Assembly (NCBI GenBank): GCA_963921825.1
Contig: OY997594.1
Coordinates: forward strand, 8,313,001-8,377,000
DNA length: 64,000 nt
Source: Erodium maritimum
Taxonomy: Eukaryota > Streptophyta > Magnoliopsida > Geraniales > Geraniaceae
Reading direction: 5' to 3'
A program made the translations under genes and the position numbers. The notes below the pieces were generated by a model. The model had not been told where the DNA came from and made no database searches. It was given only the letters and a program-made list of their open reading frames with translations. Of this stretch, positions 9,001 to 52,307 are shown piece by piece (the stretch's first letter is position 1; the number at the start of each line of letters is the position of its first letter).

Positions 9001-12000
9001 TGGTCTAGCCACCGAAGCCTTGTAGGGTGAACCTTGAATCAGATGGATGTCAAGAATACTTTCCTTTATGGTGATCTTAAGGAACAAATCTATATGCGGG
9101 TACCTTAGGGCTTGCTTCCTTCACCAACTTCCCAGGTCGCTCACTCCATGGGCTGAAGCAAGCCCCACGAGCGGGTATGAGAAGTTTCATGCTATTCTAC
9201 ACGACTTTGCTTTTCAGCCAAGTAGACATGAGATTTCTTTATTTGTGCGTCGCTCATCGGATGGGATTGTCATACTTATATGGACGATATTATAATTACC
9301 GGTACAACCATGTCTATGATTTCTAAGTTGAAGTATTATCTCCATAACTCCTTACAGATGAAACACTTGGGTTCTCTTATGTATGTTTTTTTGGTCTTGA
9401 GGTTCACACTGGCTCGACAAGAATTTACCTAGTCAATGACCTGCTTGACTTATCTGGTATTCATGGCAGTTGTCCGGTAGACACTCCAATGGAGCTCAAT
9501 GTCACATTACACAAAGAAGAGGTGATCTCCTATCAGATCCGACAGTATATCATCGGCTGGTTGGGAGTTTGGTTCTACTCACCCTGATATTTCCTTTGTG
9601 GTTCAGCATGTTAGTCAGTTTTTTCAATGTCTGCGACATTTGCATATGGCCGTTGGTCGTCGCATTCTGCATTATCTTTTGGGCACAGTGGCCAAATGAA
9701 TTTGTTTTCCTTCAGCCACTTCCCTTCATCTTTCAGCATATAGAGATGTCGGTTGGACAGTTTGTGAGGATGTTAGACGTTCTATGGCAGGTTAGTGTGT
9801 GTTCTTGGGCCCTACCTGTATTTCTTGGAAGTGCAAAAAGCAAGACCGAGTCTCTAAATCTTCTATTGAGGCAGAGTATCGAGCTATGTCTCAAACATAT
9901 TCTAATGTTATCTTGAGATTTTTGTCTCCTAAGGCTACTCCACTTCATGTAGGCAATACAGGTGCTATACGTATTACAGCTAACCATGTCTACCATGAAT
10001 GCACCAAGTATATTGAGGTAGACTGTCACTTCATCCATAAAACATATGATTTCCGAGTGCTCTCACTCCCTTATGTACCTTCGAATCTCCAATTGGCTGA
10101 CATTTTTATCAAAGCGCTTCTTCGCCAACGTCATAAGTTTCAGACAGACATATTGTTGTTGGTCGATCAACCCACATCAACTTTAGGGAGGGGGGTCAAT
10201 CCTATGGGTTTTAGGGTCTAGGTCTGTTTCCTAATCAATGCACCTTGTGTAGTATATATATGTGGTCTTATACAAGTCTTGGGTCATCAAATACAAAAGT
10301 CAATTCCTAAGATAGCCACATACCTCTGGGCCAAATCATTTAATAACTTAAGCTTTGGGCTCAAAACAAAATTGAATAATTCATTTAATTTACTAAAAGT
10401 AGCTGCATTAGTATTACTTATAGTTTTTTTTTTGTTCTCTTTCCTTTTTCCTTCCATAAAGCTATTTGGATGAATAGGATTATACGTCTTGATGCCTTTT
10501 CTCTATGATGTTCTGTGTTAAAGAGTTACCCCTTACTTTTAGTGTTTCTTATTAATCTAAACAAGAATGTATAAATAAGGGATAATTGTCCATAACTACC
10601 CTAAAGTTTCGTCCACGTTGTGTGGCTACCCTGAAGTTTTGTCCACAACTTTTTTAGTTTTGACGTAATAGGGATGTTCAGAATGATGGTTTGGGGCCTC
10701 TGGGCAGTGCTTCCCGGATTGAATAGAAGCGTGGACAAAACTTCAATGCACCTACAAAAGCGTGGGCAAAACTTCAATGCACCCACAAAAGCGTGGAAAA
10801 AACTTCAGGGTAGCCACACAGCGTGGACAAAACTTTGTTATAAACTCATTTGTGGACGAAACTTTAGGGTAGTTTTGGACAATTATCCCTATAGATAATA
10901 GAAAACAATGAAAATATATTGTTCAAAGAAGGAAAACAAAAGAGAGAAACAACGGTCAAATGTCACCTGCCATTTATTTTGGCCAAACGGATAGTGTTCT
11001 ATTGGTTATATATATTTTTGTTTGTGTTTTGATTCTTGACTATATATGTAATAAAATATTCTTAGCAGCATGCTGTAATTATGACATTATTTCTTAATTT
11101 TTCTTTGCTTTTCATATAGGGCTTCATATCACATCAGTCAAGTAGTTCCTTTGATCAGAGTGGCAGCGTGTTCAGTAGGTTTCGTACCAGGCATAACAGA
11201 AGCCCATCTCTTAATGAAGAAACTATAGGCTGCCACACCGTGGATCTTCAAACTTCAACAATTAAGATTGACGCGGCGGATACTGATCTCCGACTTTGCT
11301 TCAGAATAATTTCTCCAGTAAAAACATACACTCTGCAGGTGAGCTTGCTGTGAGGATTTGATTGTGGTGCTGGAATGTGCAGCTAATTTACTTCATGATG
11401 AATTGCCTTAAGGAGCCTTGACCCTACTTGAGGCTCATTATATTTTGGATCTGTTGGTAGATGACCCGAATTATCTGCCTGAACAGGACCACAGGGTATT
11501 TGGTTTTACTAGTCTTTATGCGCCTTGATTTGGACAGTATAAAGAAAACATAGTTATCCAAAAGCTTGATATTTTGGGTATTTTGCTCTAAACATCACCC
11601 TGATCTGGCTGGGATAATTCAGCAAGTGGGTTGATAACTAATTTGCTATTCCAATGATAGGAAATGCCATATAAGTATGCAACTTTTTGTTATAATCCGA
11701 GTGATTTCAGGATGATGATTCCGTAAAATTCCTTCACTATATTTGGTCAGGCTGAAAATGGAGCAGATCGGATGGACTGGATAAATAAAATCACTGCAGT
11801 AATCACATCTCTTCTGAATACAAATTTCCTGCAACAGGTAAATCCCAACAGATGTATACAACTTCCAGTATAAAAGTACAACAACAATTGGAGCTTTTGT
11901 TAATAGGAGCCGATAAATATCTTCTGCAGACACAACCAAAAACAAAAGGTTTGGGGAATAGTAGCGGCTTCAATGATTATGAACTGCTAGATAGCTACGA

Positions 12001-15000
12001 GAATCCTGTGAATGCCGTAAATGTTGACCAAGGAGTTTCTGTTTCTAAAACACTTAGAGAAGTTCCTGGAAATGAACTTTGTGCAGAGTGCAGCTGTCCG
12101 GAACCTGATTGGGCATCTTTAAATCTTGGCATTTTATTGTGCATCGAATGCTCTGGTGTCCATCGCAACCTTGGCGTTCATATATCAAAGGTTTGCTATA
12201 TACTCTACCAAAACTTAAGGCCTTCCTTGGTTGTTACTGATGAAATTGTTTACAGTTACTTGAAAACTCGAAATTTTGTACAGCATTGTTTATCTTTTTT
12301 TTAGCATAGTAATAGATTTTATTGATAGACTTTTGAGAACTCAAAACTGATCGTACACGAAATGGAAATATTGAAAGTGGAGATATAAGAAAGGGTTAAA
12401 CATAGTCTCGGGTTTTACAAGCAAGATCCGAGACGCTGACCCTGAAACAAAAGTATTGCTTGTTATGCAGTTTTGTGATGTAGTAGGCACAGGCAAAAGT
12501 CTTTTCCTGACTTGACCTAAAAATGTCCGCAGTGTTTGAGAAACACACTAGTCTCTTGGCGGAGACTTTTTCGAGACAACTAGGGGAATACGGGCATGTA
12601 GGGAGAACACCAGGAAAAGGGGGAGCCTTGGGGTCAAGATGACTCTGACCTCGGCAGGGCGGGGTGTGCGTCCCCAGGCACACCTCGTTGCTCGGTCGCA
12701 TAGTCATTGGCCTTAGCAAGGCTGCTTCGCAGACCTCGCCTGGGTGTCAGTACCCTGATCCAGTGGATAGGGCTGGGGCGGCACAATCCCTATGTCGGAC
12801 CCTGGATTGGGCCTCGAGTGATAGGATGCGCCACAATCCTTATGTCGGACCCTGGATCGGGTCTCTGATGAGCTCAGATGATCGGAAGCCGGCGACGATG
12901 TCAGCGAAGGAGGCGGCGGTGCTAGTGGCATCCCCTTGGGACCTCTGCAGGTCCACAGGCTCGCGGCAAAGGGAGCGGAGGCGGTGGTGTTGGTGGTGGC
13001 CAGTTGATCGCCAGAGGAGAAAACGGAGGAAGTGGTGCTTGATCGCGCGTAGTGGTGGGAGAATGGAACGCCTTTGATCTCTTCCCCCAGCCGTTCCCAG
13101 AGGGTATCCGAAATAGAGACATTGCTCGTGAAGGAGGTGGAGGTGGAGGTGGTGGATGTGTAGCAGTAGATGGCCGGGACGGTGCCCGTGAACAGCGATT
13201 TCACCATGAAGAGCCAGGGCCGGCTGGAGAGAGGGCCATGGTGCTACTCTTAAGAGAATTGTAGGGTATTGTTCTTAGTGACTGATGCAAGATGATACAT
13301 CATTAGGACTCTTAATTAAAATTAGAATTAAAGTTAATGACTGATAAAAAGAGAAAATTACTTGTCCAAATGGTCAAGTGCTTGGCCTTTTGACCCAGAG
13401 GTTAGGAGTTCGAGTCATGACAGTGGTGCAAATCTTAGTCCTAGAAAAGCATGTGCTGAAAAATACGACGTTCACTAATTTCAGAACTACAACTAAAGGG
13501 ATGCTTTGTCTGGCCAACAACAGGTTAGATCTCTATCCTTAGATGTCAGAGTTTGGGAACCAACAATCATGGATTTATTTCGCAGCTTGGGTAATACATA
13601 TTGTAACTCTGTATGGGAGGGATTGCTTCTACTTGAGAAAGACAGCATAGAAAGGTATGATCTCATACCATGACACCAAGTACTATAAGAGAAATGTCAA
13701 TGTGTGTTGATTATCCCGTTTAAACTTTCTGGGTAGGCGAGACATTTTTAGTGCATTATTATTATGTTCAAGCTATTGTTTCAAAGAGGACATTGTAATT
13801 AAATGAATCAAAATGAAATGTCATTGAGATGTTATTTTGATTTAATACTAATGTTATCTGTGAATTCATTGTTCATAGGACGTGCATATTATATATTTTC
13901 AACTAATGCTGCCGTATCATGAAAGTAACTGAGTTTGGAAAAACTTTACCCTCTAATTTTAGTTGTTATAGTATGACTACAAAATGCATGTTCCTTCCTT
14001 ATTCATCAAAATGTTAAATTTCTTAAAGTGTTGAAGTGACATTAAAATGTGGTTTTAGTGACCACTTGATATAGTAGTTGGACTTTCCACCTAAGTGCTT
14101 GAACTTTTGAGTTTGATCCGGCTTTAACATGATATTAGAGCTTGGATTCCCTTCATGCTTCCTCACCATTGGTCCACGTGTGATACCCTTCGTGTAGTAT
14201 ATTTGTGTTATATGGTTTGGTGGAAGTAATGTGTGGAAATTTTCTACTTCCTAATTTTTCTTGTTGTATCTCTATGCAGTATGGATGAAGTAAATCCTAT
14301 ATTTGCTTCAGTCACAAAACCGTGCCCGCAAGATACCTTTTATTGCAAGGAGAAATATATTCACGCTAAAGTACGCATCTAAACTCCTAATTTTATTTAT
14401 TTATTTATCCTTGTTCACACCATTATTAGCATATAAATGCATATATTGCTTTGTATGACTAACCAATTGATCTTATGACTTTCCCTAACTTGAGTGCTTT
14501 AAACTAGTATGTAGAGAAATCACTAGTTGTCAGAGAAACAACTAGATCAGGAAATCCTCCAAGCATCAACATCTGGGAAGCAGTCAAGTCTAACAATCTG
14601 CGACAAGTATATCGTCTTATTGTGACATCAGAAGTAAATATTGTCAATACCATTTTTGATGACGTGTTTGGTGTGGACTTGTATCACCATGTGGATGCAC
14701 AAGACTCAAAGTTAGAAAGGAAAGCAACTAGTCCTGCAACCTGTCGGAGAATCAAGGATACGAATGCATCAGAGAGCTGTTTACAGGGTTGTTCACTATT
14801 GCATCTTGCATGTCACTATGGCCACAAAGTGATGGTCGAGCTCTTGTTGCAATTTGGAGCGGATGCAAATATGCTTGATTACCATGGAAGAACTCCTTTG
14901 CACCATTGCATCTTCAGAGAGCACAATGAGCTGGCGAAGTTTCTAATCAAAAGGTAATGTAACACATCTCTTCTCTGAAATTTACCTAAGCAGCCGATTT

Positions 15001-16426: not shown

Positions 16427-17226
16427 GAGTGTACCTTACAACCAGGAGCACCTTACACAGGTCTCAAACCAAAATACAAAGAAATGAATGAAATACAACC
16501 AACAAGGGTGAACAACGAAGAAATCAGACCAACACAGAGCAAGAAAAACTAAAAACAGAGAAAAAGGTAAAACCAAAAAACCACAATCAGAGCTTCAGGC
16601 ACCAGATGAAACCAAACCAGACAGAACCTTAGCAGTCCAAGGACGCTTGAAAAACAACAGATCCAGCCACAAAACGTTCTCCCCAACCCTTGAAACCCCT
16701 GGACTCTCAAGACAAGGCACTAAGGCCGGAGGTCAGATCTAGTTCTCTTCGTTTTCTCCCTCCCTTGGCTCCTCGGATTGTCCTTGTCCGGTCCCGTTAG
16801 CGGTGGTGCTACGTGTGACTCGGGACCCGTACGCTGGTGTTGGCCGCGTAGGGTTTGTCCGGCCTTAGTGCCTTGTCTTGAGAGTCCAGGGGTTTCAAGG
16901 GTTGGGGAGAACGTTTTGTGGCTGGATCTGTTGTTCTTCAAGCGTCCTTGGGCTGCTAGGGTTCTATCTGGTTTGGTTTCATCTGGTGCCTGAAGCTCTG
17001 ATTGTGGTTTTTTGGTTTTACCTTTTTCTCTGTTTTTAGTTTTTCTTGCTCTGTGTTGGTCTGATTTCTTCGTTGTTCACCCTTGTTGGGTTGTATTTCA
17101 TTCATTTCTTTGTATTCTGGTTTGAGGCCTATGTAAGGTGCTCCTGGTTGTAAGATATCTGTACTCAGATCATTTTGTCCCCTCTTGAGGGAGATTTATC
17201 TACTGCTTTGCTGATCAAAAAAAAAG
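16427..17226. mobile_element. head-to-head LINE 3' ends forming a 300-bp-arm palindrome
   Basis: 16427-16729 is the near-perfect reverse complement of 16859-17156, separated by about 130 bp of unique GC-richer spacer. The plus-strand arm ends in LINE 3' features: GGTGCTCCTGGTTGTAAG, then TTTGCTGATCAAAAAAAAA at about 17210-17226. The left arm is the same 3' end inverted and without a tail. A transcript across both arms would fold into a hairpin of about 300 bp. Sequence at 16030-16426 may be a further, older part of the same insertion. Confidence 0.8.
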
Positions 17227-17245
17227 AGTGTGGAGCGAAAGGAGG

Positions 17246-17660: not shown

Positions 17661-20600
17661 TCAGCACCTCGGCTCCTGCTTCAAATGGAGCCCACTAGGC
17701 GACCCAAACATCATAGACTGGAGACACAGAATGGACATTAGCTACCCTCAATACATTATATTTTTCTTCTTCTTAACTCATGAATGCTTTTGCAAAAGAA
17801 AGAAACAAGAATATAGGGATAATTGTCAAAACATGCACTTATGTTTCGTCCACAAACGAAATAGTGCACAATGTTTCGTCCACGTCGTCTGGCTACCCTT
17901 ATGAATTGTCCACGCACTTCTGTCAGTAAAATTAACAGAATATTCGAATTTGTAGCCTCACGTGCTATCATGTGCTTGTGTCTGAAATTTTTTTTGGACG
18001 AAATTGCCCTAACAATCCTCAGCCACTCATTTTTTTGGACGAAATTCTTATTTTTGAATTTCAAACCAAAAGAGCAAAATTGTCAATTCAGGTTCTGCTG
18101 TTACACTTTTCTAACAGAAGTGTGTGGACGATTCATAAGGGTAGCCAGACGACGTGGACAAAACATTGTGCACTATTTCGTTTGTGGACGAAACATAAGT
18201 GCATGTTTTGACAATTATCCCAAGAATATAACGCCCACATCAAGAAATAAATGTGGATCATCTGAAGAAAAGTACAGCTAAATATAGACTTGTTATGTTT
18301 ACATGAGAGCTTACCTGAACAGAATTAGGCAATATATTATTTGCCAGATCCTCATTGATAGATACGAGCAGCGGCGGCATTTTACTCATTATGCCAGGCA
18401 TATCTCTCATGCTGCACAGATTGAGTCAAAATCTTATTAAACCATACTATCAACATGTACAGATAAAAACCAGAATAAGCATTGACATAAATGGAAACCA
18501 AATAAAAAAACATGGGATAATTGTCCAAAACTACCCTAAAGTTTCGTCCACAAACGAGATGCACAAAGTTTTGTCCACAATTATCCCAAAAAACATTTAA
18601 AAGGTATACATACTCATTTAGGACTGCAATAATGTTACTCCTCGCCTGACAGAAGAGGTCAATGTTGTCCTGTAACTGTTCATAGAAGTATCAGAACAAT
18701 GTTCTATCTAGTGTGATAGCTTCTAGTGAAGTATATAAGGATCTGTATATATAATTTTTCAGATCTACAAAGAAAATTTATGTCAGAGCACATATACATA
18801 GAATGTTAGAAGACAAGATAGCTTGTAAGAATATTTATTTCCTCTCGATGAATGTATGACCACAAAAACTAGGGAAACGAGGTATGCACCTTGTAATTAG
18901 AAAGATTAGTGGAGATTTGACTAAAAGCTTGATTATTTTGTTCCAAGAGATGCTTAGCAGTGCCACTCATTCCTGAAACTAGCCAAGGAAACAAATATAT
19001 CAACTTTAACTGAAATGTTAAAAAGGAGTAAGAGACACAAGTTAGAAAATATTGGCATCTTCTTACTTTTACACTGGCATTCAACATTGTTAGTAGTCCT
19101 TAAATAATATAAATACATAAAAGGAAACACACATGTTTATAAGAGAAACTAATATCCATTGCTTCATATTGCATAATATACAACTAAGATCATTATGGAC
19201 ACAGCAAAATTAAAGTAAGAATCCTTTTTTATCATTGGGGTGACTATAATGGCAACTCAATCAACTCCACCAATTTAAAAACAAATAAATAAATATGGAA
19301 GAGAAATTATATACGTACACTGACCTTCATATAGCATATGTTCACTCTGGTCCATATGGTACCGCGCGAGAGAATACGGAGTCATGGATAGAGGTGGAAG
19401 TGAAGGTATATTTGCCATTGATGATGATTCTACCAGCTTATCCTGAAGAGGCATGATATTTAGAGTACTGGCAGCACTTAAACCAATATGGAATAGATTT
19501 ACTGTTATTAGTTTTCTAGGTAGTTATTTATAGTTACTTAGTGTGATCATGGGTAGTTATTTATTAATTATGGGTAGTTATTTAAGGTATTGTGATCATG
19601 GAAAGTTGCATGATCTTTGTGTTAGTTTGGAAGTCCAACCTATTTATAAGTTGGCCATTTAATGAAGAGGACATCAAGAATTATAAACAAAAACAAAAAC
19701 CAAAGGCGAAAGATTTCCATCCAGATCTTGTGTTCTCTCTAACGAATGCTACATGAGATATTGCGTTCTCTCCAATGAATGCTACAAAACATATCCCTTA
19801 ACTCGATCCAAATCGGGGACTATAACATCCTTATGAAAGTACTTCTTAACTAAATTAAAATAGGAATCTTGCCTATGGTTCAACAAGTCAAGTATAATGA
19901 GTTGTAACATTAAGTTTATATCATTTCAGTTTCCTTATCATTCTTAAGCAATAAATTCATTGATGAATGTGAAATGTGAAGGAATGAGAGAGCATCATAA
20001 CTTATGTTACTGTATGTTGTAGCAAGTGTAAAGTTACTCATGCAATGGAAATTAAAGGGGGTTGACAAAGTAAGTTGTGCATCAAGGCAGATTAGGATCA
20101 AAACACAACTGTTATTGATGTAATCATTTATAAAGTCAACCTCATCTTGTTGTTGGGTAGTAACATTCAGTTTCAATGAGTGTATGCATGTTTGAGTTGT
20201 TTCTATTCAGATCTCAAGCTAAAATAAACTAGCTTAGTCATTTTTTTCTGCTAAGTCATGACATATATTGGAAAAATATAAAAATAAAATATGTATACCT
20301 TCCTGGTATTCACCTTCTTTCCAGCAGCATGTTCATCAGCTTTTCTTCTCTTTCTCTGTGAAAGATTCACAAAAAACAAACAAACACTCAGCTCACATAA
20401 AGAAATCAGTATTAACAGTACATATTGATTCACTACCAAAAGGGCTGGGCTAAAAATAATTGCTTCATAAGAGGTTGACAAAGTGACAAATAGTGTGTAT
20501 AACAAGATTTCAGAAGGTCTACAGACATCAATGAAATGATAAGCAATAAAAGACTTATGTATAACAAGATTTCAGAAGGTCTACAGACATCAATGAAATG

Positions 20601-21554
20601 ATAAGCAATAAAAGACTTACCGCCATCCACCTACACCTCAGTGCAACATCGCGTACAGTTTTGTCATGCAACAAAGCTGCAATCTTCACATACCTCATAA
20701 TACTTGGCTCCTCAGCATATCTAAAAATTTAAAGAGACGCGTATTAACCACAAAAGGAGAAGGTAAATAAATAACCTTTTCTTTACCATAATCATCATAC
20801 AAGCGGAAAATTTCCAGGCACGCCATTACAACGAAAGTAAGAATAAATAATTAAGAGAATGAACATTGTTTCGTATCTCTTCATGGAGGATAAGAGAAAG
20901 CAGGCAAGTTAGAAACTTGGCTGTAAGACTTGACTAGTTTTTGTTTGAACCTAATCACAGCTCTAAGCATCAGAGAGTACTAGAGTAGAGTATGTTGATG
21001 TAGTTGAAACCATAAAATGACAGTACATCTGAAGCATTAAGAGATAAACGCACAGCCATCACAGATACAAGGGTAACTACTTTAGTTCGTTCTCACAGCC
21101 AATTCTAATTGTTTATAATTACTGACGTAAACTATAGAGATCCTAAACCAATTTGAAACTATCACACGCATCATGCCAAAATACTACAGTTGGACACATA
21201 GTGACATAAGGGTTAAGTAAATGACTGTAAGGATGTGAGCCGTAAGAAGGCGGAACAAAATACTTACATGCCAAGACCTTCCTCCAACTTGTACTGCTCC
21301 TCTGGTGACCAGTCAACAGCCAATCCAGTGTCATGAGTGAGACCAGGAACAGAATCCAGAAGAAGAGAACCTGAAGAATTCCCAGCTTGAACCATCCCAT
21401 GGTTGTTATTAAATACACTAGAATTCCCGTAGTAATTCCCCATGGGAATCATCTCCGATGTGCTGCTAATTACACCGGACTGAAAAGATAGGGCATGCCG
21501 ATTCATAGGAGACCCTAAACCATCCTGAAAATCCATGTTTGATTCAGCTACCAT
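17661..21554 (-). CDS. DUF3755 family protein with a SANT/Myb-like segment (homologue of Arabidopsis At3g07565 type)
   Basis: About 284 residues from eight exons on the minus strand, all with matching phases: 21554-21268, 20720-20621, 20355-20299, 19442-19325, 18972-18890, 18669-18614, 18411-18315, 17717-17661 (stop). The N-terminus MVAESNMDFQDGLGSP starts at 21554. A helix-turn-helix-like stretch follows (VDWSPEEQYKLEEGL ... RYVKIAALLHDKTVRDVALRCRWM), then a basic patch RKRRKADEHAAGKK that could be a nuclear signal, then conserved GTAKHLLEQNNQAFSQIS and MRDMPGIMSKMPPLP-like motifs, ending HLKQEPRC. Likely nuclear; the precise function is not known to me. The last exon codes only 18 residues. 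Introns contain foldback MITEs 2 and 3 and a 62-bp tandem duplication next to the exon 2 donor. Head-to-head with the 7SL gene and convergent with the ARF-GAP gene. Confidence 0.93.
17816..18221. mobile_element. foldback MITE 2 in DUF3755 intron 7
   Basis: Ends GGGATAATTGTC and GACAATTATCCC with inverted arms of over 110 bp (TTTCGTCCACAAACGAAATA and complement). Perfect 9-bp target duplication AAGAATATA at 17807-17815 and 18222-18230. Same family as MITEs 1 and 3. Confidence 0.92.
18514..18587. mobile_element. foldback MITE 3, 74-bp minimal copy
   Basis: Ends GGGATAATTGTCC and CACAATTATCCC, only 74 bp long, with the family motif GTTTCGTCCACAAACGAGA. Perfect 9-bp target duplication AAAAAACAT at 18505-18513 and 18588-18596. 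It lies in the intron between DUF3755 exons 6 and 5. Confidence 0.92.
19500..19830. other. possible solo LTR fragment in DUF3755 intron
   Basis: TAGTTATTTA-type repeats, GTTAGTTTGGAAGTCCAACC followed by TATTTATAAG (a TATA-like box) and repeated TTCTCTCTAACGAATGCTAC / TTCTCTCCAATGAATGCTAC, with the general look of a plant Copia LTR. No internal region or target duplication was found. The rest of the intron (19443-20298) is unremarkable. Confidence 0.3.
20496..20619. repeat. 62-bp tandem duplication abutting a splice donor
   Basis: The 62-bp unit starting TGTATAACAAGATTTCAGAA is present twice without a gap (20496-20557 and 20558-20619), identical by eye. The exon 2 donor of the DUF3755 gene (GTAAGT on the minus strand, 20615-20620) lies at the boundary. 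The first copy carries a near-donor (reverse complement of AGACTTAT) one base from the real one. Confidence 0.95.
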
Positions 21555-22484: not shown

Positions 22485-22787
22485 GCCGAGCTCAGTTGCG
22501 TGAGCTTGTCACCAAGCGGGGCTTTAAGGGTGATTGAACATGGTCTTGACTTTCCAGGTTGGGCCCAAACAGGCCTATACTGGCCCGCCCGATCCAAGTA
22601 GAGAGTTGGGCTGTGGGCCTCAGGCGAAAGCTTGGATCTCACGGCCCTTAGAGAGGAGAGGACCGCGTCAGGCTGGCTTCACAGAGCATCGATCATTTCC
22701 CGCTCCCTTCGGTGGATGGATAACGGGCCGGTTCCTGTTAGGCCCATCTAAACCTGTCGAGTCAAGTCCAACTGGACAATCACTTTT
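22485..22787 (+). ncRNA. 7SL RNA (signal recognition particle RNA)
   Basis: About 303 nt, the usual plant 7SL length. The 5' end GCCGAGCTCAGTTGCG matches the conserved plant SRP RNA start. Further blocks typical of plant 7SL are GAGCTTGTCACCAAGCGGGG, GGATCTCACGGCCC, GAGGACCGCGTCAGGCTGGC, TTCACAGAGCATCGATC and CGGTGGATGGATAACGGGCC. It ends in a T-run terminator TTTT at 22784-22787. USE and TATA upstream fit Pol III. It is the RNA scaffold of the SRP that targets secretory proteins to the ER. One complete copy with an intact promoter suggests an active gene rather than a retro-pseudogene, since there is no poly(A) tail or target duplication. Confidence 0.9.
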
Positions 22788-22960: not shown

Positions 22961-24117
22961 TCAAACTTCAGATTGTCTTTTAATAGTGAGGGTGAAATAT
23001 ATGAGAATTAGTGTCCCTATGCTCGACCTGAACCAACCACATTACGGAAAAGTAATTAGATTTGATCATAGAATGCAGATCGTGCGAAAACTAGTGTTGA
23101 TACTCACAGAGTTGCAAAGATGAAAAGGATCTTCCTCGGGTTCAGGCGATTGAATCGCTTGTTCTTTCCATCAGTTGCATCGTTGAGATTAGGACTGCAT
23201 GCTGTAGTTGTGGAAGGTGTTAGAGATTTAGTGGTGATCAATGGCTGCTTCAGAGGTTCAAATTGCGAGTTCACTGCCAAAGAGAGGAGCAAGATTCAAT
23301 CTGTCATGCAACCATTTAGTTCTCACTGTACCAAACGCTTACATATACTACGATAAAAATGAAGCTCACATAAGACCATATTCAGCTAGAAAGATCTCAA
23401 TACAGTAAGAAATTGGTTGGCAGAATATATCATACCCTTAATTACAAGTTTTTTTGATGGGTCGTCTATGTCTTCTTCTTCCATAGTAGCTAACCTTTCG
23501 GTTCGATATGACCATTTCCGAGAGAGTATTCTCTAATGTGAAACAGGAGCCAATAGAAATTCAAAAGTGGTGCAATGCAACAAATTAAATGGAATTTTGT
23601 TGAGAAAGATAATTGGGTTAATTGCATAGCTACCTATACATTTTTTACAGATAACTTTCCAACTTTAAACTTTTATGTCCAGTCACTTAAACTTTGAAAA
23701 ATCAAACTGAACTCTTTTTTTCCAAAATGCCCTTGACCCTAATCTCGAGAAATACCATTTTTTGTCTTTTTAATAGTTTTATTTTTAAGGATTCTTTTTA
23801 CCGGTTTTTACATTTAATCAAAAAGTTTTGGGTGAGATTAGGGTCAAGGGATTTTAGGCATTTTCTAGCCAAAAAGAGCTATGTATAATTTTTTTAAAGT
23901 TTAGGTAGTTGGATGTAAAGGTTTAAAGTTGGGATAGTTATACGCAAAAGACGTATAGTACGCAATAGCTATTTGCAATTAGCCCAAGAAAATTTACAGA
24001 TGTGAAAATTGGAAACATGATGCTCACTGTCATTTTGGGGCTCCCTGAGCTTCTGTCGGAGGCTTGTGTTAGGCTCTCAATATCCAACACCACAGTGGCT
24101 GTTTTGTCGGAAGTCAT
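22961..24117 (-). CDS. small tail-anchored membrane protein, conserved plant protein of unknown function
   Basis: Four coding exons on the minus strand give 139 residues with consistent phases: 24117-24028, 23532-23436, 23273-23108, 23027-22961 (stop TGA). The N-terminus is MTSDKTATVVLDIESLTQ, followed by a serine-rich stretch (SDRSSGSPKMT), RILSRKWSYRTERLATMEEEDI, a linker with KQPLITTKSLTPSTTT, and one C-terminal hydrophobic segment at about residues 111-133 (KILFIFATL..ILIYFTLTI) with a short tail KRQSEV. This is the layout of a tail-anchored protein with its N-terminus in the cytosol. I recognise it as a conserved plant hypothetical but know no function. Upstream, a 5' UTR exon at about 25805-25965 (donor CTTCAG|GTCTGT, TATATATA near 25987) and perhaps a 20-nt exon at 25559-25578 may belong to it; the ATG exon starts at acceptor 24126. 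Confidence 0.8.
23615..23985. mobile_element. foldback MITE 4, GGGTTAATTGC type
   Basis: Ends GGGTTAATTGCATAGC and GCTATTTGCAATTAGCCC with inverted arms (ACTTTCCAACTTTAAAC / GTTTAAAGTTGGGATAGT). The inner arms contain ACCCTAATCTCG / GAGATTAGGGTC. Flanking 9-mers AAGATAATT and AAGAAAATT match 8 of 9. It sits in the intron between the first two coding exons of the tail-anchored protein gene. Confidence 0.85.
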
Positions 24118-35879: not shown

Positions 35880-36318
35880 GGGATAACGCTCGTTCTCAAC
35901 TTTTGTAAATGTTTCGTTTTCACGTTCTAACCCGGGCTAACGTATCGAGTCACTTCCATACATAAAACGTTTGGTTTTTTGCAGAAAGTATAAAAAGCCG
36001 TCAAACTTAACGATTTCGTTAACTTGTCGACACGTGAGGGTCACGTGTTCCAAACCTTTGGGTCTGAAAATGTTGGTTCCAAACCTTTCTGAATGTTTCA
36101 TTATCACGTTTTAACCCAGACCAACGTTTCATTATCGCGATGTGGAAGGGTATTTTAGACTTTTCGATTCCGAAGTTAACGAAATTGTTAAGTTGGACGG
36201 CTTTTTATACTTTTTGCAAAAAACGAAACGTTTAATGTATGGAAGTGACTCGATACGTTGGCCCGGGTTAGGACGTGAAAACGAAACGTTTACAAAGGTT
36301 GGGAACCAGCGTTTTCCT
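35880..36318. mobile_element. foldback MITE 5 at the TIPIN promoter
   Basis: Left end GGGATAACGCTCGTTCTCAAC pairs with right end GTTGGGAACCAGCGTTTTCCT; long arms contain CGTATCGAGTCACTTCCATA and its complement. Perfect 9-bp target duplication AAGGGTTAA at 35871-35879 and 36319-36327. It lies only 50-180 bp upstream of the possible TIPIN starts, so it may supply or disturb promoter sequence. Confidence 0.92.
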
Positions 36319-37355: not shown

Positions 37356-40300
37356 CTAAGAATTCACAGACCAATCATAGTTCTGGTGCACAATATGTAT
37401 GGAGCCGCCATCGCCTAAAAGATGCATCAAGAGCCCTACTCTATTTGGATCCAAGTAATTTATAGTCCACTTGAGCATATCCCTCTCCTGTCCAAAGTCT
37501 GCACTTGACCTGCCAGCAAAAGATTTTGTTAGCCACAGTTTCCTTTTCCTTGACTGTAAAGGATAAATGAGGTAGGCATTGAACACTCACCACTTCATGA
37601 TCCTGGTTAGATAAACAGTCCTGCGACCCAGGTCAACCTCAAAACTACCACTTTTGAAGAAATCTCTGGCTGCCTCTCTCAGTTGAGCTTCAACTACTTG
37701 GGGTGAAAAGAACCTTACTTTCGGACTTGACTTTGTCCCATCACACAGTCCAAAATGGATCAGTGGATTAACTTTTGGAAGAGCAAGCTGGAATATACAG
37801 ATACAAGTCTCATTACTTGCCTCCTTGTCATGATTCATATCTACTACTATGTCATTAGTCATGTACATGTTCGGACACGACTCTAATAAATAGATGAAAA
37901 TTGGTTCTGATAAAATCATAAGAGCATGAAAAATGCACTAGATATGATGAAGTCATTCCTCCAAATGATTCAGAATTTAAAGCTTCGATTAAATTTATCT
38001 CATACGAACATTCCTCAGAGTTATTTACCTCTGCTCTCATGTCTCCTGACCCAAAGGGCTTGATGAAGGAGTAAGGGGGCCTTTGGTTACTCCTAAGGAT
38101 CCCATTTTTAATTTCGTCAAGTGAATAGGGGTGCCCGCCAACTATGTATTGGAAGTCAGAGGAGAAGGCTCCCCTATCAAAGATCCCTTCCGGACGTCCA
38201 AGTCTTATAACTGCATGTATGACCATGGCATTGTACAAGTTCAAAAAGAAAGCCAGCTTCTCATCTGATGAGAGTTCTGTGAGATTCACCCGGTGTAAAT
38301 CTTGAATCAATTTTAGATATCTGCATATGGATGGAGGTAAGAAATTTAGAAAATGAAGATAAGTACTCCCTATAGTTAAGTATGTGAGGAAGAAAGCCTT
38401 GTAATAACCTTCTGAACTCCTCGCTCTGGCTGATGCCCACATAATCAACATGGCATCTATCATTTGAGGCATATGACTCAAGTATGGCAGACATAAGCTT
38501 GGTGAGCTTTATGCCTACCTTTGCTGCAGATTTGGGCTCACTATCGTTTGTAGATGCTATGAAATTGTAACATTTGGAGATAGATGGACCATGCTCAAGG
38601 AAACGATAAACGTGGTTTCCATCTTCAAAATCGCTCTTCCTACACAATCACATATTTCTTTTCCATCAGTGTTACCCCACTTAAGAAACCACAAAATTCC
38701 ACACTAGAGAAAAAATCCTTACCCAAAGACATGATGGATGAAGTGCTTCCTAGCAAGTTGCTTTCCAATCTCAGTAGCCTGAATATTTAATAAAAAGCAA
38801 GTTATTAAAACCCAAGAAGGAAATTAAGAAACTCAATAGTAAATACAGCAAAAGACAGTTTCTGTTTTTCTTTTATCAAGAATATGCTAGATATGAAGCA
38901 TAATCATTAGTACAACCTCCCTTCACATGCTTAATCTGTACCACTAGATTCTGGAGCAAAAGAAGTTCAGATGTTGTCCATAGTTATACCTTTTCTCAAT
39001 GTGCTTTTTCATTGGGTGAGCCACCAATCTAAACTCCATTATTCTTTCAATTGTGACAACAGGGGAAAAATCAAATCTAACACAAAATTATGGGTTAATT
39101 ACCTTTAGTACCCCTTATGTATTGGTAACACACATTTAGTACCCTTATGTATTGGTAACAAACTGGATAAAATTTTGGTCAAGTTTAGGCCATTTTGACG
39201 ACCTGTGACCAATTGATAAGGCGTGTAATTGTCCCGTTACCAATACATAAGGGGTATTAAATGATGTGTGATCAATTCATAAGGGGTACTAAAAGTGTGT
39301 TACCAAAACGTAGGGGTGGTTTTTGAACGTTACCAAACGTAAGGGTACTAAAGGTACGTTACCAATAGAAAAGAGGTACAAAAAGGAATCATCCCCAAAA
39401 TTATACTACTATTGGGAAAGGCATAATGATTTTCCCAGTGATGAATAAGTAAATTGTATGGGTCATAAATTCATTAAAGAGAGAAATAAAAGTGATAGAG
39501 GAATGTTTCCACTTTAGATGAGAGAGGAGTCAACATTTGGAAGAGTTCAATATGATAGTCACAGACCTAATCTCCTACGGTGCTGCCTGAAAAAAAAACA
39601 TTTCTCTAATGCTAGGAAGGTGAAGCAGAGTTCAATCACTGGTCCACTTGGTCAAGCCCAGAAAATCAAGAACTTAAATTTATTGACATGAGGAATATGC
39701 CAGACCAGTATAATCAAAATAGAGACCCAAGTCTCCAGAAGCTATGAACTCCCATTTAGTCCCCAAATAATTTCATCTTTGGGTTTAGACACAAAAGCTA
39801 ACAGCACTGTGCTCCAAGCTAGGATAAAAATCACACAATGAATCTAACAGAGGATTCAAGTAAAGGATACAAAATGGAAGTGCATCATGAAATATCTGCC
39901 AGATTTATCTGTTACTACAAGAAGATTTATACCACCTTTGGTAAATAAATAAAAAAAGGGACCCATGAAAAATTAAATAGTCAACCAGAAATTCAGTTTT
40001 CTCTGTTCCTTTTGCAGATCAGACTGTTATAATTTTTTTCTTTTGAGTACGTTTGTGGCAATCAATGAGTACTGCAACGAACTACCATAATCCTAATTAT
40101 TTATCAATTAATTAGTTACCAAGAGAGTGGCTCTCGATTAGCAACATAATGCTTGCACGTTCGTCATCATAAATGATGCCCACAGAAGACACGCCAAAAC
40201 TCAATGCCATAGTTGGCTGTTGGCTCCGCCTCGTAAGGAGGGAAGGGCAGGTTCGTCCCTTCATGTAAAATCGAATTATTTAAGACTTGATACTATTCTT

Positions 40301-43856: not shown

Positions 43857-43887
<31 letters not shown>

Positions 43888-43895
43888 GGGGGGGG
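43840..43895. repeat. (CA)n-(TG)n palindrome followed by a 25-base G-run
   Basis: CACACACACATATGTGTGTG continues as (GT)n and then an uninterrupted run of about 25 G (43871-43895). This could form a cruciform and a G-quadruplex. Length of such a run is easily changed by sequencing or assembly error. Confidence 0.9.
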
Positions 43896-44276
43896 ACAGA
43901 AGAGGAATGAGACTCAAGTCATTGAGCGGAAGAAGATCGCAACAAAGAAGAGGGTCTTGGGTCCAGCTGACATAACCCCTACAAAAGAGTTTCAAGAACA
44001 TCAGACGAGGTCTGGAAAACAGTCTCGTTAGGATAAATGAGAGGATCTAAGGGATACGGGGCACATGGGAAGAAAATTTTCACGGGGACAGAAGAGGAAT
44101 GAGACTCAAGTCATTGAGCGGAAGAAGATCGCAACAAAGAAGAAGGTCTTGGGTCCAGCTGACATAACCCCTACAAAAGAGTTTCAAGAACATCAGATGA
44201 GGTCTGGAAAACAGTCTTGTTAGGATAAATGAGAGGATCTAAGGGATACGTGGCACATGGGAAGAAAATTTTCACG
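43893..44276. repeat. 192-bp tandem duplication
   Basis: Unit starting GGGACAGAAGAGGAATGAGA at 43893-44084 is repeated at 44085-44276 with four substitutions by eye (for example AGACGAG/AGATGAG and GTCTCG/GTCTTG; two are C-to-T). The first unit begins at the end of the G-run. Confidence 0.93.
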
Positions 44277-46100: not shown

Positions 46101-46119
46101 TTGGGCACTTAAACCAAGT

Positions 46120-46570
46120 TCACATTTGTCTTTTCTTTTGGGTTTAGTTTTATTTTGGTTTGGGCCTTGTTGTCCTTAGTTAGGTTGACCCCTTGTTGGG
46201 CATGGTTGTATTAGGTCGGGCTTTGCCCTTGGTTGTAACCTGTTTGTGATGTATTTCCTATTAGGTTCTGAGACATGTTTAGGTTGGGTTTCCCTTGTTG
46301 GGAAGTCTTAGTTTTGAGGCTGTGTTTGTTGGCCAGTACTCTATTTGTTTATGAGTTTGCTTCATGGTCGAAAAATCAGGGTATAGGATTGTTAGACCCA
46401 TCCTAGTTTTAGCTTAGTTTCTTACTCTGCAAAACACTTGTGTTAGGGACCCCTACAGGGGTCGCCATTGTTTGTAAGATTTTGGTTGTGAGGGTTCGCC
46501 CTTTTCCTCGCTCTTCACTTTGAAGACTTAGTATTTATATAAAAAAAATCTGCTGATCGAAAAAAAAAAG
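46120..46570 (+). mobile_element. LINE 3' end
   Basis: GT-rich trailer (GGTTTGGGCCTTGTTG, TGTTGGGCATGGTTG, TTGGTTGTAACC) ending TATATAAAAAAAATCTGC then TGATCGAAAAAAAAAAG at about 46540-46570, a LINE 3' UTR with two A-runs. No coding part is attached. Confidence 0.65.
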
Positions 46571-48040
46571 TACTGGATCCGGATCTAGCTTTAGATCATC
46601 TGAATATTTAGATTTTGGACTGGATTTTATCTAATTTAGTTTGAATCGATTATTTTTCAAATTGGATCGGTTCGGATTCATTCGAATTTCGGATTTCAGA
46701 ATTTTTGGCATGGTCCTAAAACAAAAATCTGGGGCTCAAAATATAGCTGGTTGTTCATGATTAAGTACTTAATAATATTGGAGAGGGCTTGGTTGTAAAG
46801 TCAACTGGAATGTAAGGTCATAGTGGCAATTTCTTGGTGGTTTTATTTGAACCCGTTAGTTCCTTCCTCACTTGTGGTTGTTTTGTTGCTTGCGCCTAAG
46901 GTTGACTAGTGATAATGATTAGCCGACTAATTAAGTTATAGTCAGTAGGGGAGAATTTACAACCAAATGGCAACCATTGACTCTTTCAACCTACTATTTA
47001 ATTACATTTTATTTCATTTGAAAATCGGATTAATTTCCGAAATTACCCTGCACCCATTTAATATGCCAAGTCCATGCCATGTACGTATTTGTAAAAATGG
47101 ATAAGGATCAAAATGGGATTTATGTGTGAGAGATAAAGACTAAGAGGAACACTGCCGTAATTGAAAAGGTCCAATATCTTATCCAATTAATGTCTCAAAT
47201 ACAACTTGTCAGTCTTGTATTTCATCGTACCAACCATTTGCCGAGTTCATGAATATCCAGAGTTTGACTTTTACTTATTCTCAGTTCTCACACTCATGGA
47301 TGCGTTGATCAAGTAAGTGCTTTTTAACCATTCAAAGTTTTCAGTTCAATAAAAAAATGGTGTTTTTGTATGATTATTCAATACAACTTGTGTGACTAAG
47401 ATGGATAAGTTAAAGTTTTCTAGTAATAAAAGAGCAATCCGTATTGATAACTAACATACACGTTAGTAAATTCCATCAATTCCTTTCATGAAAATCACGT
47501 CATAAACAAATATGTTGTGCTCGGCCCTTCACCTAGGGTAGTTTGGCGGACAAGATGGTGTCTAGTGACCCCTCATCTCTCTTTGCAGTCATAAGGTTGA
47601 TATAAAATAAGGGTAAGCTGGTAAGTTCTCATCATAAGATTGATATGAGTAAAGTTAAAATCGTCATTTTGCTCTCAACTAATTATCACATGCCTACCAG
47701 AATATAATATTTCGTCCATTTTCACTAACAGAATCGTGTGACCAATATTTTATGTATCGTATATATGATTTTACAAACATAAATAGTATAGTGTTCGTGA
47801 CCAATAATTAGGAGTAAGTTTCAATATTTAGCCTTAAAAAAATGAACCTTATGTGCCATTAAATTTCAATTTAATTATTTATATTTGTAGCATGAATTTT
47901 CAAATATTAGTGGGCTTTGACGTCTTCAACTTTTGGGGATCAATCAACCCCAACTTCTTTGAATGGGCTTTTTAATCATGTGAAACCAAGCCCAACAAAG
48001 CCCTTCATCTTTAGAAGTGTTGGACTTGGGAGAAAAAATA
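46571..48040. other. AT-rich intergenic
   Basis: No gene, terminal repeat or RNA recognised between the LINE end and the tRNA gene. Confidence 0.4.
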
Positions 48041-48060
48041 AGAACCAAAAATTAGTTACA

Positions 48061-48134
48061 TGCTCTCGTTGAGAGTCGAACTCAAGACCTCCCGCTTACT
48101 AAACGGGTGCTCTAACCAACTGAGCTACGAGAGC
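48061..48134 (-). tRNA. tRNA-Thr(AGU)
   Basis: Complete cloverleaf on the minus strand: acceptor GCTCTCG/CGAGAGC, D-arm GCTC-AGTTGGTTA-GAGC, anticodon arm CCCGT-TTAGTAA-GCGGG with anticodon AGT, variable AGGTC, T-arm TTGAG-TTCGACT-CTCAA, discriminator A. Boxes A and B are intact. No intron. A T-run (complement of AAAAA at about 48046-48050) follows as Pol III terminator. Decodes ACU (and ACC by inosine). Confidence 0.96.
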
Positions 48135-48350
48135 CTGATGCTATCATTCAGTTCATATGATACATATACTTTATGTTTCTAACTATACAGACTAAAAGTA
48201 ATTTAGAGCACTGTTAACATTAATAAACAGATTATTGGCCTGATAAAATACTAGTACATATATTTTTAATTAAAAAATATTTCTGATAAGTTATCTTAAA
48301 TATGTTTGTCACAATCACAAGATCTATTGTCATTTTTTAGGAGGGATCAT
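48135..48350. other. AT-rich intergenic between tRNA and retroposon
   Basis: Contains the upstream flank of the tRNA gene. Nothing else recognised. Confidence 0.4.
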
Positions 48351-48354
48351 ATTT

Positions 48355-50140
48355 TCTTTTTGAAACGGCCTTATATTATTAAAACTCCATACCTATAAGA
48401 CATAGGAGAAGACAAGGGTAAAGAACCCTCGTGTACAAACACAAGAATCGAAAATGATGTACGACCTCAAACCAACTACAATGGTTCAACAAAGGAACAA
48501 ATAACATCACACCCAACTACAATGGTTCAACAAAGGAACAAATAACATCACACTATGAAGGGTTACAACAGGTATGAAACCAGATTATAGCAATCAAATA
48601 ACAGTCAAACTAGTCCTAAATAAAGAGCAGCGAAAAAGGTCTAATAAGCCGGATGTAACTACCATGAAGCTCCAAATCGAAAAGTTGTAATAAAAAGTTT
48701 ATGTACCAAATTTTCCAACCATGAAGCCCTTGTAGTGTCCACAACCTTCAGCTCGGAAATGTCTTACACAAGAACTCCAACCTCGACCTATTTATACCGA
48801 GAGTACTCAACCACAAAGGCAACACCCAAAAGATATCGCCAAACACTACTCGAATCCCCCAAGTAGTGACTAACTCAGATCAACACCACCGGTTAATCCA
48901 AATGGGGAGTCGAAACTGAAAAACCCTAAAATCATAGTCGGAGTGACGAGATCAGAGGAATCAGTTCCTAGTTCAACGAACCACCTAGACAATGAAAAAG
49001 TGGAAGAGAACTAAAAGTCTCTACATAATCTCTGAAACAACCCTCCAAGTACTGCTCAATTATCATTGGTAACCCACCGAAAGTCAATATTATTCGGCGA
49101 ACTAAGAGGCGAGTTAGAACTCTTTGACTACGATCTCTTCTCCAAAAAAAAATTGAAGAACAAAACACTCTAAACAAAAAGGGGCGAAAAGTAAAAACAT
49201 ACAAAAACAAAGTTAACGGCAAACCAACCACGACTAAAATCGCCACCACCGAAACAACCCCAAGACCCGAACACAGTACTGCTTCAACAAAACCAAATTA
49301 AGGCATAACACCACCATGACGGCCAACACCAGTCGTGGTGTCTGACTACAACAAATATCGAGAAAAGAAAGTATTATATGAGGATCGAGGGGAGGACGAG
49401 ATGGAAGCAAAAGACGGGGATTATAGTGAACGACATATCCGCGATGGATTAGACCAGTTCCCAACAAAACACCGGAGGAATCAGGTAGCTGAACCCCACC
49501 ACCTCGACGAGCAGGTGCACGACCACCGAAACAGATCTGAAAGGTCGAAATCAGATCCACATTGTAACAGATCAGAAATGACCCAACAGAGAAAATTGTA
49601 TGGGGCTTCAACGACGAACGATCACCGGAGACGAGGCCGGAGGAAGAGACAGGGAGTCTCGAGCTCCATTGCTCCAATAACACCCATCGATCTGACGCTG
49701 GAAGAACCACCGTCGTCGAGCCAAAAGTATCCCGCAACACCACCAACGGTCCTCTTCCAGACCCTAAACTGTAGATCTGAAAATACAACCGGAAAAGGAA
49801 GAGTAAGCAAGGAGTGGAGTCGGACCTGAGGATGTCATTCCCAAGAAATTGATCTCATCGGCCGAGACCACCGGGAGACGAAAACAGACGGGGCACACCA
49901 GGGCGAGAAGAGTTCATGACCCGAAGAACCACAAATTGACGATATCAAGGTCATCCATGGACGATCGAGGCTGTGACGACGACCCAAGAAGGAGGAAGAA
50001 ACTGTAAGTAGAAAGAAGAAATGGAGAGGGGAAGGACGAAGGAGAGATATACGAGTGAGTTACTATCGACAACGACTATGAACGAAGGTCACAATCATTC
50101 TCAGCGATGAAGGAGAAGGGGGTGTAGCGTGGAAGAAAGA
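48355..50140 (-). mobile_element. LINE-like retroposon, minus strand
   Basis: CTTTTTGAAACGGCC at about 48358 is the complement of a LINE-type 3' end (GTTTCAAAAAG). The 5' half (49300-50140) is GC-richer and open for 184 residues at 49234-49788 in the minus direction, without a recognisable domain. It includes a 41-bp tandem duplication at 48472-48553. The 5' limit is approximate; no reverse transcriptase is seen. Confidence 0.55.
48472..48553. repeat. 41-bp tandem duplication
   Basis: Unit CCAACTACAATGGTTCAACA (first 20 bases) present twice head to tail at 48472-48512 and 48513-48553, identical by eye, within the retroposon. Confidence 0.93.
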
Positions 50141-50276
50141 CGGCTCAGATTTATTTTAAAGAGATAATGGATTTCACCTTTTTATTGTAAATTAAGTTGA
50201 ATGAAATATGATCACATTCTTTTAATATGTACTTTAAACTACATCGATTCATCTAGACGAATTTTGTTTTATTCGG

Positions 50277-51602
50277 TTTTTTTTTAGAAGAACAAGTTGC
50301 AATTTTATTATAAAGTAAGATAAATTGACAAGCACACAAGTGTGCCCATCATACAAAGTCGAAACCAACTAACAAACAGAAAGTAAAGACAGAAGAGTAA
50401 ATTGTGCTCTGGTAATAGGGGCGGACAAAGAGGGTATCTGCGGTAGCATCCTAGGACACCGATACAGCATGCTTCTTCCAAAGGGCACTGGGCGAGCCAA
50501 CCGAGTGAAGGGGGAATACTGGTGGACCTACATCTACCCCGGTATGTCAGCGTGCGTCGTCCTCCCTAGACTGATAATGGTAGGACTCCTGAACGCGGGT
50601 GTGCTGACTCCGGACTGGCAGGGGAGACAGATATCGACTGAAGATGGAACCTTCGCAATCTATCCGCCGGGAAGGGGCCAAAGTCGACCCACCCCTCCCC
50701 GGGCCACCTCAGACTCATTCCTGTAGGCGGGGGTGCTTGTAGCCCCCCGCCGCTGCTGCGTGTGATTCTCCATCCGGGCCCGGCCCAGTCTGCTGCTACA
50801 GGCCCAACCCCAACTCGCTAGGGTTGTCCCGCGCCTAGGCCACCGGCTTCCCCTTGAGCCGCCTACGTTCCAGCGTCGTCGGCAGCTCTGACATCGTCTT
50901 TTCAGTGTCCGACGAGACTAGGACGACGTCCCGTCCCGCCGCCACTCCCTCATGCAGAAGCCCCGTCGGCCTCCCCCGCGTTCCCCGTGGTACCCGAGGA
51001 CGCGGGCCTCTCGCCGGCAACCAGCGACCTCCAATCACCGCCACGGACCGCCAGCCACTGCCCGGATTCACCTCTCCCATACCCCATACCGCCGAGAACA
51101 GCATCCCCGGCTCTGTCACCTCCCTCGGCGTCAGCGCCTCCGGAGCCGTCAGGGAGGCACCTTCGTCCTCCTCCCCACCATCTCCATCCGACAGCCCCAG
51201 GATCACCCCATCCACCGCCTCCAAACCGAGGACGACGACCTTATCACCATGATCCCCGACTTCACACAGCCACCACTGGCTTGCCAGCGACGCATCCTCA
51301 CGGTGTCGTCCCGGTATGCGAGCTCCCCCCGGCCGGTTCTCCACCGTAGTCACAGGCACCCTCGACGAGCCCCCGTGATCGAACCCTTGTTCCGAGGTCG
51401 GCGTATACCACGATCGGATCGCCGCCCCCGCGTTCTCCATTGATTCCGGCGTGGGCTTCCTGAGCAACACCACGACGAAACCATCCTCCACATCAAGGTG
51501 AATATCCACCGACAGCGGCATCCTTCTTGATTGGAAATCGCAGAACTCTGAAACCCTAGGTTTCAGAGCTGCGGCGCTGCTGAAACTTCTTTTCAACATG
51601 CT
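50277..51602 (-). mobile_element. LINE-like retroposon with an intact 254-residue frame
   Basis: A T-run at 50277-50285 followed by the complement of AAAATTGCAACTTGTTCTTC marks a LINE-like tail on the minus strand. The body is strongly GC-rich against AT-rich flanks. One open frame, 51599-50835, codes 254 residues (MLKRSFSSAAALKPRVSEFC...), with no zinc knuckle or reverse transcriptase that I can see. It could be an ORF1-like protein of a non-autonomous element, or captured host sequence. Confidence 0.55.
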
Positions 51603-51836
51603 TCTCTTACACCCTTATTCAGTTTGTTTAATTTTAAGGTTTAGTGACAAAAATGTTTCTTATATATATAAAATACAAATTTATTTATTTATTAGAAGTA
51701 AATTTTATAAAAGATGAACACATAATCTTCTGAATCAAAATAATTCTATTTTTCATATAGAGAACATTTTCGTCATTAAAACAAAAACATAGATATGATT
51801 GAGATAAATTGATACAATTTAAAATAGGGATAATTA

Positions 51837-52307
51837 TCATTCCCAACCCCAAACTTTACGTCAAATTCATATCCTAACCCTTCCTCACCTTTCGTTTCAA
51901 ATCATAACCTCAACTTTCATTTTTTTTTTCAAAACCTATCATTTAATGTTCAAATTAACGTAACAGTTAATTTGCTAGTCACGTGCACACTTAAGTGACC
52001 CCATATTTCGAATTTATTCCCATTTTCCCCCTTAAAACTACTACTTAAGTGTAAGATTGTGAATGTGAATGGATTTAGGAGGGTATCAATGAGAAAGGGT
52101 CAAGGGTAAAAATAGGAATAAATTCGAAATATGGGGTCACTTAAGTGTGCACGTCACCAACAAATTAACTGTTCCGCTAATTCGAACAATAAATGATAGG
52201 TTTTGAAAAAAAAACGAAAGTTGAGGTTAGGATTTGAAACGAAAGGTGAGGAGGGGTTAGGATGTGAATTTGACGTAAAGTTTAGGGTTGGGAATGATAA
52301 ATATCCC
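51837..52307. mobile_element. foldback MITE 8, GGGATAATTATC type
   Basis: Left GGGATAATTATCATTCCCAA pairs with right GGGAATGATAAATATCCC. Arms of about 150 bp include AAACTTTACGTCAAATTCAT and complement, and a central GTGCACACTTAAGTGACC motif in both orientations. Perfect 9-bp target duplication TTTAAAATA at 51828-51836 and 52308-52316. Confidence 0.93.

Follow-up and report, generated by a model that had tools for sequence, protein, structure and literature searches.

Foldback hairpins with 9-bp duplications in a 64-kb window of Erodium maritimum, probable Mutator-type MITEs with a 30-bp arm period in several of their groups

Genes and other features of the locus

The window analysed here is a stretch of 64,000 bp of nuclear DNA from Erodium maritimum (C7:8313001-8377000), whose domain and RNA matches include ArfGAP, glutaredoxin and a plant signal recognition particle RNA. 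Eight hairpins, numbered E1 to E8 from left to right, lie among the following features, for which a strand is given where one was assigned.

1576-6627, minus strand: Copia-type retrotransposon (ORFs recognised by eye) with 170-bp direct repeats at 98% identity
about 8386-10218: second Copia-like fragment (by eye)
20496-20619: perfect 62-bp tandem duplication, with another of 41 bp, also perfect, at 48472-48553
22485-22787: full-length match to a gene for the plant signal recognition particle RNA; E4 follows at a distance of about 0.8 kb
43871-44276: tandem duplication of 192 bp (97-98% identity), with a stretch of 25 consecutive G leading into it
48061-48134, minus strand: tRNA gene
55851-56840: long ORF resembling a PIF/Harbinger-type nuclease (by eye only)

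E3 is intronic in a DUF3755 gene, identified by its Pfam match and by splice sites read by eye, and E2 lies downstream of a GTAAGC donor of the DUF3755 gene, in a candidate last intron. E7 is located between GRX/DEP and DUF547 exons (Pfam), which are taken to be parts of one gene, and E5 and E6 lie upstream of a CCHC gene, where a Swi3 match falls just below the cut-off. Near E1, a search with short motifs of the ArfGAP gene's N-terminal region gave no match, and the ORF near E8 has no Pfam match. The sequence-only reading had put five of the hairpins in introns; this holds for E3 in the DUF3755 intron, and an intron position of E1 and E4 would be tentative.

The eight hairpins

All eight foldbacks with opposed GGG(A/T)TAA-type ends that had been proposed from the sequence were located. 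Five carry perfect 9-bp duplications (TSDs) and two carry 8/9 matches, in agreement with the initial count; the start first given as 51837 was 10 bases off, and that element begins at 51827. The elements are as follows, none being assigned a strand.

E1, 10579-10889: group A, 311-bp foldback, probable MULE-MITE; TSD TATAAATAA/TATAGATAA, 8/9
E2, 17816-18221: group A, 406-bp foldback, probable MULE-MITE; TSD AAGAATATA, perfect
E3, 18514-18587: group A, minimal 74-bp hairpin; TSD AAAAAACAT, perfect
E4, 23615-23985: group C foldback; TSD AAGATAATT/AAGAAAATT, 8/9
E5, 35880-36318: group D foldback, 439 bp, with arms of 145 bp; TSD AAGGGTTAA, perfect
E6, 36321 to about 36624: group B foldback, the host of E5; direct flanks unmatched
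E7, 39092-39395: group B foldback, 304 bp; TSD CAAAATTAT, perfect
E8, 51827-52307: group E foldback, 481 bp; TSD TTTAAAATA, perfect

An inverted-repeat search of the window recovers these elements independently, the 74-bp E3 solely as the partner of its neighbour. The arms detected by this search measure 108-145 bp in E2, E5 and E8 (115 bp at 96% identity in E2), so that the earlier description of the ends as short is not supported for three of the eight, and 43-66 nt in E1, E4, E6 and E7. MULE TIRs are typically 100-500 bp long (PMC3310237); TIRs that are long in this sense are present in E2, E5 and E8, with shorter arms in E1, E4, E6 and E7 and a total length of 74 bp in E3. Self-complementarity over most of the element, the mark of a foldback, is likewise found in E2, E5 and E8 and is partial in E1, E4, E6 and E7; E8 is near-palindromic along its full length, at 84% against its own reverse complement.

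A further foldback at 16432-17157 was considered as a ninth member and rejected for its lack of GGG ends and of an evident duplication. Its outer arms are 94% and its inner arms 98% complementary, and it contains ORFs on both strands.

Sequence groups and nesting

All-versus-all comparison of the eight elements (E up to 1e-3) yields five groups, namely A (E1, E2, E3), B (E6, E7), C (E4), D (E5) and E (E8), with no similarity across groups at this threshold. The bodies had been described as unrelated in sequence, which is borne out for five mutually dissimilar groups, not for eight separate bodies, as E1, E2 and E3 are related to one another and E6 is 79% like E7. The termini of E5 read GGGATAACG, not GGGATAATT.

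The first bases of E6 fall within the right-hand AAGGGTTAA repeat of E5, which places E5 inside the left end of E6. Once E5 and one duplication are removed, E6 is flanked by TAAAACGAA and TAAATTAAA, a 6/9 match counted by hand. E6 is probably the older of the two, its own duplication having eroded.

Copies elsewhere in the genome

The genome searched was the 763-Mb assembly that includes the window. First-look candidates numbered 1210 for E2, 1950 for E1, 2141 for E7, 1386 for E5, 338 for E8 and 902 for E4; these are not copy counts, being unscored and drawn from related families that overlap, and the best 40 were scored for each element. Among these best 40, identity is 98-100% for E2, 90-100% for E1, 96-100% for E7 and 94-100% for E8, and for E5 31 matches span at least 436 of the 439 positions at 82-100%. 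For E4 (best 40 of 902), the best other match is 72% over 352 of 371 positions, with longer matches mostly at 70-77% and shorter stretches up to 85%, and the element appears to belong to an old family. As the scored matches are the top ones, they give no mean family age; nevertheless, the contrast of E2 or E7 with E4 suggests bursts at differing times.

Duplications were inspected in top-scoring copies of E2 (28 of 40 scored) and E1 (30 of 40 scored), and in ten copies each of E7, E5 and E8, hand-picked from at most 39 top matches as those extending to the ends. The results, as matching positions, are as follows.

E2, 28 copies including that of the window: 25 perfect, one 8/9, one 7, one 3; other copies perfect in 24 of 27
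E1, 30 loci including that of the window, with ends found in 25: 19 perfect, four 8/9 (the window's among them), one 5, one shifted; other loci perfect in 19 of 29, with the ends missed by the pattern in five
E7, 10 other copies: six perfect, two 8, one 7, one 4
E5, 10 other copies: five perfect at the exact end, two perfect with the left end moved by +1 base, two 7, one 5
E8, 10 other copies: eight perfect, one 8, one 3

The Mutator-type 9-bp duplication thus stands up genome-wide: leaving aside the window's own copies, 86 further copies of these five elements were scored and 64 have it perfect, and the three empty sites described below add to this. The 22 further copies without a perfect duplication include the five E1 loci whose ends were missed by the pattern. 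The features expected of MITEs, that is short length, many copies, TIRs and duplications, are all found, with E1, E2, E4, E5, E7 and E8 as the genome queries.

Length of the duplication

Whether nine is the characteristic length was addressed by a census of the window, in which GGG...CCC pairs separated by 50-1200 bp, with a terminal match of 9/12 bases or better, were scored for duplications of 5-13 bp. Perfect duplications occur three times at length 9 and not at any other length; with one mismatch allowed, there are five at length 9, one at 5, one at 6, and none at 7, 8 or 10-13. Over 100 Markov-1 sequences, duplications of length 9 average 0.0 per sequence if perfect and 0.01 with one mismatch, which rules out a chance origin. 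The elements at 35880 (right end CCT), 36321 and 39092 escape the census, the last being recovered at 7/12. Across 96 genomic loci (293,493 bases, many chosen as E1 or E2 copies), perfect duplications number 50 at length 9, one at 6 and one at 8, with none at 7, 10, 11 or 12.

These lengths bear on the superfamily. Duplications are 8 bp long for hAT elements and 3 bp for PIF/Harbinger elements, while MULEs make duplications of 9-11 bp. An exact 8-bp match replaces the 9-bp one in two of the ten E7 copies, both within A runs, which could be taken to favour a superfamily other than Mutator for these MITEs, for instance hAT or PIF/Harbinger. Against this, the window is perfect at 9 only (lengths 5-13) and the fetched loci give 50 at 9 versus one at 8; the 8-bp duplication of hAT MITEs is absent from the window census and is not the rule in the fetched loci, the MULE-type length is found in both the window and the genomic copies, and another superfamily is very improbable. 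With high confidence, the eight features are foldback MITEs that are non-autonomous and belong to the Mutator (MULE) superfamily, falling into five groups.

Empty sites and target preference

Empty counterparts were sought for 44 perfectly duplicated sites (25 of E2, 19 of E1), whose flanks were joined with one copy of the duplication and compared only with the extracted loci and the window. Three E2 copies have such a counterpart. The joined flanks of L006 (TTTAAGTTT) align to E1-type hairpins, at best about 93%, and those of L002 (ACTAAAGTT) align to E1-type hairpins at 70-75%; both junctions are ungapped, the nearest gap being one base, 8-9 bases away. The flanks of L028 (TTGTATAAA) match a sixth-family element of locus L008 without gaps for tens of bases on either side of the junction. 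A fourth candidate, L012, is AT-rich and was set aside, its alignment being too gapped for use.

The same observations dispose of replication or repair slippage, by which inverted duplications would be made without any transposition. The foldback at 16432-17157, which has neither the GGG-type ends nor any evident duplication, does speak for it. However, the perfect 9-bp duplications that 64 of the 86 further copies show at dispersed and differing positions, together with the three empty sites, refute slippage for the elements that have duplications, and as a general account it has next to no probability.

Including E5 in E6, four insertions into other such elements are known here. In two of the three empty sites, the landing point is the core AAGTTTTGTCCA of the 30-bp unit described below, and the unit may itself draw insertions. 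The 54 perfect duplications are 91% A+T, as against 67% in the 100-bp flanks; with both strands counted, position 1 is T and position 9 is A in 69%. Insertion is thus into AT-rich sites, of which the (TA)n repeats targeted by MuTAnT are not the rule.

Arm units and exchanged middles

In group A, the arms contain the motif AAAGTTT(C/T)GTCCAC repeated every 30 bp. The 25 E1-family copies measured are 310-317 bp (6 copies), 331 bp (1), 340-342 bp (17) and 372 bp (1) long, and E1 itself is about one unit below the commonest form (342 bp). An alignment of seven copies displays gain or loss of units of about 30 bp, the exceptions being the 331-bp copy, which is short by about 11 bases, and a 317-bp copy (L044), which differs in its middle too.

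Periodicity was then pooled over 14 arms from the five groups, E3 being excluded as too short. Shift 30 alone stands out, with a mean z of 1.95 (next highest 0.81), compared with a maximum across all shifts of 1.47 in 150 shuffled sets with one arm per element. It ranks first of 46 shifts in 6 of the 14 arms, and its mean over sixty random stretches of the window is 0.14. By group, z at shift 30 is 3.0 in A, 2.4 in B, 1.1 in C, 0.7 in D and 2.5 in E; for E5, a best-window test peaks at shift 29, which the whole-arm test does not support. The 30-bp period was not found in the three elements of the sixth family (L008). It is a trait of several groups, not of all, and is weak in C and D (E4, E5). 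Internal repeats that vary in number, a further property of foldback elements, are present in group A, and the period itself is supported in B and E.

The sixth family has GGGATAATTG-like ends, and its elements occupy L008:136-490, 853-1296 and 2936-3310, within 3.4 kb; two have perfect 9-bp duplications and one an 8/9 duplication.

An 869-bp element at L034:347-1215, flanked by a perfect 9-bp duplication, has E2 arms (95-97% identity), but the middle between them, about 560 bp long, is another sequence. This one case is the most direct sign that mobilisation acts on the arms and not on the middles.

The long arms also bear on the possibility that the hairpins are retained by the host as sources of small RNAs or as intron regulators. 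The RNA fold predicted for E2 is -234.5 kcal/mol (z = -25), and several elements lie in or beside genes, as such a role would suggest. Long inverted arms alone give a strong fold, however, and no Rfam microRNA family matches at the gathering score, which at that score excludes known microRNA genes. A host role is unlikely.

Mobilisation

For the preferred reading, that of non-autonomous Mutator-type MITEs, a mechanism can be proposed. A MULE transposase supplied in trans would recognise the GGG(A/T)TAATT-like end that the hairpins have in common and, probably, the arm motifs spaced at 30 bp, as putative binding sites. It would excise the hairpin and insert it at an AT-rich site cut with a 9-bp stagger, a cut that produces the 9-bp duplication. 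The same transposase could plausibly serve all of the groups.

Alternatively, several MULE transposases may move the five groups, the end being a cleavage signal common to the superfamily and the arms specifying the binder. This is about evenly balanced. It is consistent with the lack of inter-group similarity at E up to 1e-3, with the difference of the E5 ends (GGGATAACG versus GGGATAATT), and with group ages that differ among the best 40 scored matches (E2 98-100%, E7 96-100%, E1 90-100%, E4 mostly 70-77%). The 30-bp period common to groups A, B and E and the 9-bp duplication in all five elements tested argue for the single transposase.

A tentative proposal, held at rather low confidence, goes further: several unrelated hairpin families may share a single architecture, reached by convergence or by inheritance, in which a common GGG(A/T)TAATT cleavage end is followed by putative transposase-binding motifs 30 bp apart, so that arm length would evolve in 30-bp steps and one transposase could move different bodies.

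The search for a transposase source

MULE domains are plentiful in the genome, with 1627 candidates for PF10551 and 843 for PF03108, and the best 150 of each, which were scored, are all above the cut-off. The top PF10551 matches presumably resemble host FAR1-type genes (by reading only). In 30 PF10551 loci with flanks of about 1.5 kb, no opposed GGG(A/T)TAA pair spans the domain, ends farther away being possible, and blastn of the eight elements against these loci gave no match. Beside one PF10551 gene, at L062:2861-2972, opposed GGGATAATT ends lie 112 bp apart without a matching duplication.

Six further MULE regions of 8 kb contain no pair of the hairpin ends; one of them has a weak inverted pair (14/20) unlike these ends. 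In a high-copy MULE family, the end GGCCTTATTACC is common to the two copies read. A MULE-like element of 5,838 bp at L091:1332-7169 has long inverted repeats, a PF10551 match inside, GGGGTT ends and an 8/9 duplication (GACATTGTC/GACAATGTC); it was rejected as the autonomous partner on account of its terminal GGGGTT, which differs from the hairpin ends.

A pattern search with the E5 end gave 92 matches (control 0), including 31 opposed pairs 287-878 bp apart and 30 unpaired ends, some of which, among them that of the window, are unpaired merely because the other end has more than three mismatches. No pairs 879 bp to 20 kb apart were found by this pattern search. A solitary E5-type end (C8:1642246-1642279) and a complete copy of E5 (C8:1642902-1643339) are about 0.6 kb apart. 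Overall, the small part of the genome that was read contains no transposase-bearing element with the hairpin ends, and most candidates lie outside that part. The end of maize MuDR, GAGATAATTGCC, is one that we take to resemble GGGATAATTGTC.

Relation to known elements

The hairpins belong to a known kind of element, the closest cases being MuTAnT, foldbacks of the kind of FARE and Tm1, and the MULEs of tomato. Across 207 plant genomes, the Mutator superfamily accounts for 41.5% of MITEs, and MITEs favour sites near genes (PMC12550479). Mutator-type MITEs being a major share of plant MITEs, the finding is ordinary in kind. The passages of that survey drawn on here make no mention of 30-bp arm units or of these ends, and a limited open-access search found no description of such units in print, a weak negative.

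MuTAnT of Medicago truncatula is a 292-bp foldback MULE-MITE with near-identical modular arms of 144 bp, a distal G-run and 9-nt duplications, and has copies in transcribed regions, in UTRs or introns (PMC4486113). It is very close to the hairpins in type, in the modular build of its arms and in duplication length. By contrast, it targets (TA)n microsatellites, whereas the hairpins enter AT-rich sites generally, and it has a described related autonomous element, none having been found here in the part of the genome read (PMC4486113).

Tm1 of root-knot nematodes, described under the title Mutator/Foldback, has mostly 9-bp duplications and, in some members, a putative transposase (PMC3169594). 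It shares with the hairpins composite inverted repeats and internal repeats variable in number, but the repeats of Tm1 measure about 14 bp and its inverted repeat does not include the terminal motifs, in contrast to the 30-bp unit and inverted ends found here (PMC3169594). The plant foldback elements FARE, SoFT-type and Tnr8, as cited in PMC3169594 and PMC4486113, are alike in having composite inverted repeats with a variable number of internal repeats.

Tomato MULEs with multiple long TIRs have 9-11 bp duplications and, in some cases, repetitive motifs within the TIRs (PMC3310237). Their TIR families partly lack an autonomous member, as do the hairpins so far; however, they double whole TIRs, while the 30-bp units lie inside a hairpin arm (PMC3310237). 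Tetris of Drosophila virilis is similar in its foldback TIRs, its variable internal tandem repeats and the failure to find an autonomous partner, and differs in its repeats of about 220 bp, in its insect host and in a superfamily that is not settled there (PMC4079207). The SIRC elements of Arabidopsis also contain short direct repeats, with a suggested derivation from the internal structure of MITEs, but these repeats are set apart by dissimilar spacers and are given no fixed period in the passages concerned (PMC10342631).

The useful part of the present locus is a natural series of arms within one genome, differing mostly by whole 30-bp units and spanning recent (98-99% alike) to old (about 72%) families. 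Tetris (PMC4079207) and tandem-TIR MULEs (PMC3310237) are the source of the idea that extra repeats may bring further binding sites or mobility. With the present series one could ask whether mobility rises with the repetition of arm motifs, a proposal made for Galileo and Tetris (PMC4079207) and for the tandem-TIR MULEs (PMC3310237).
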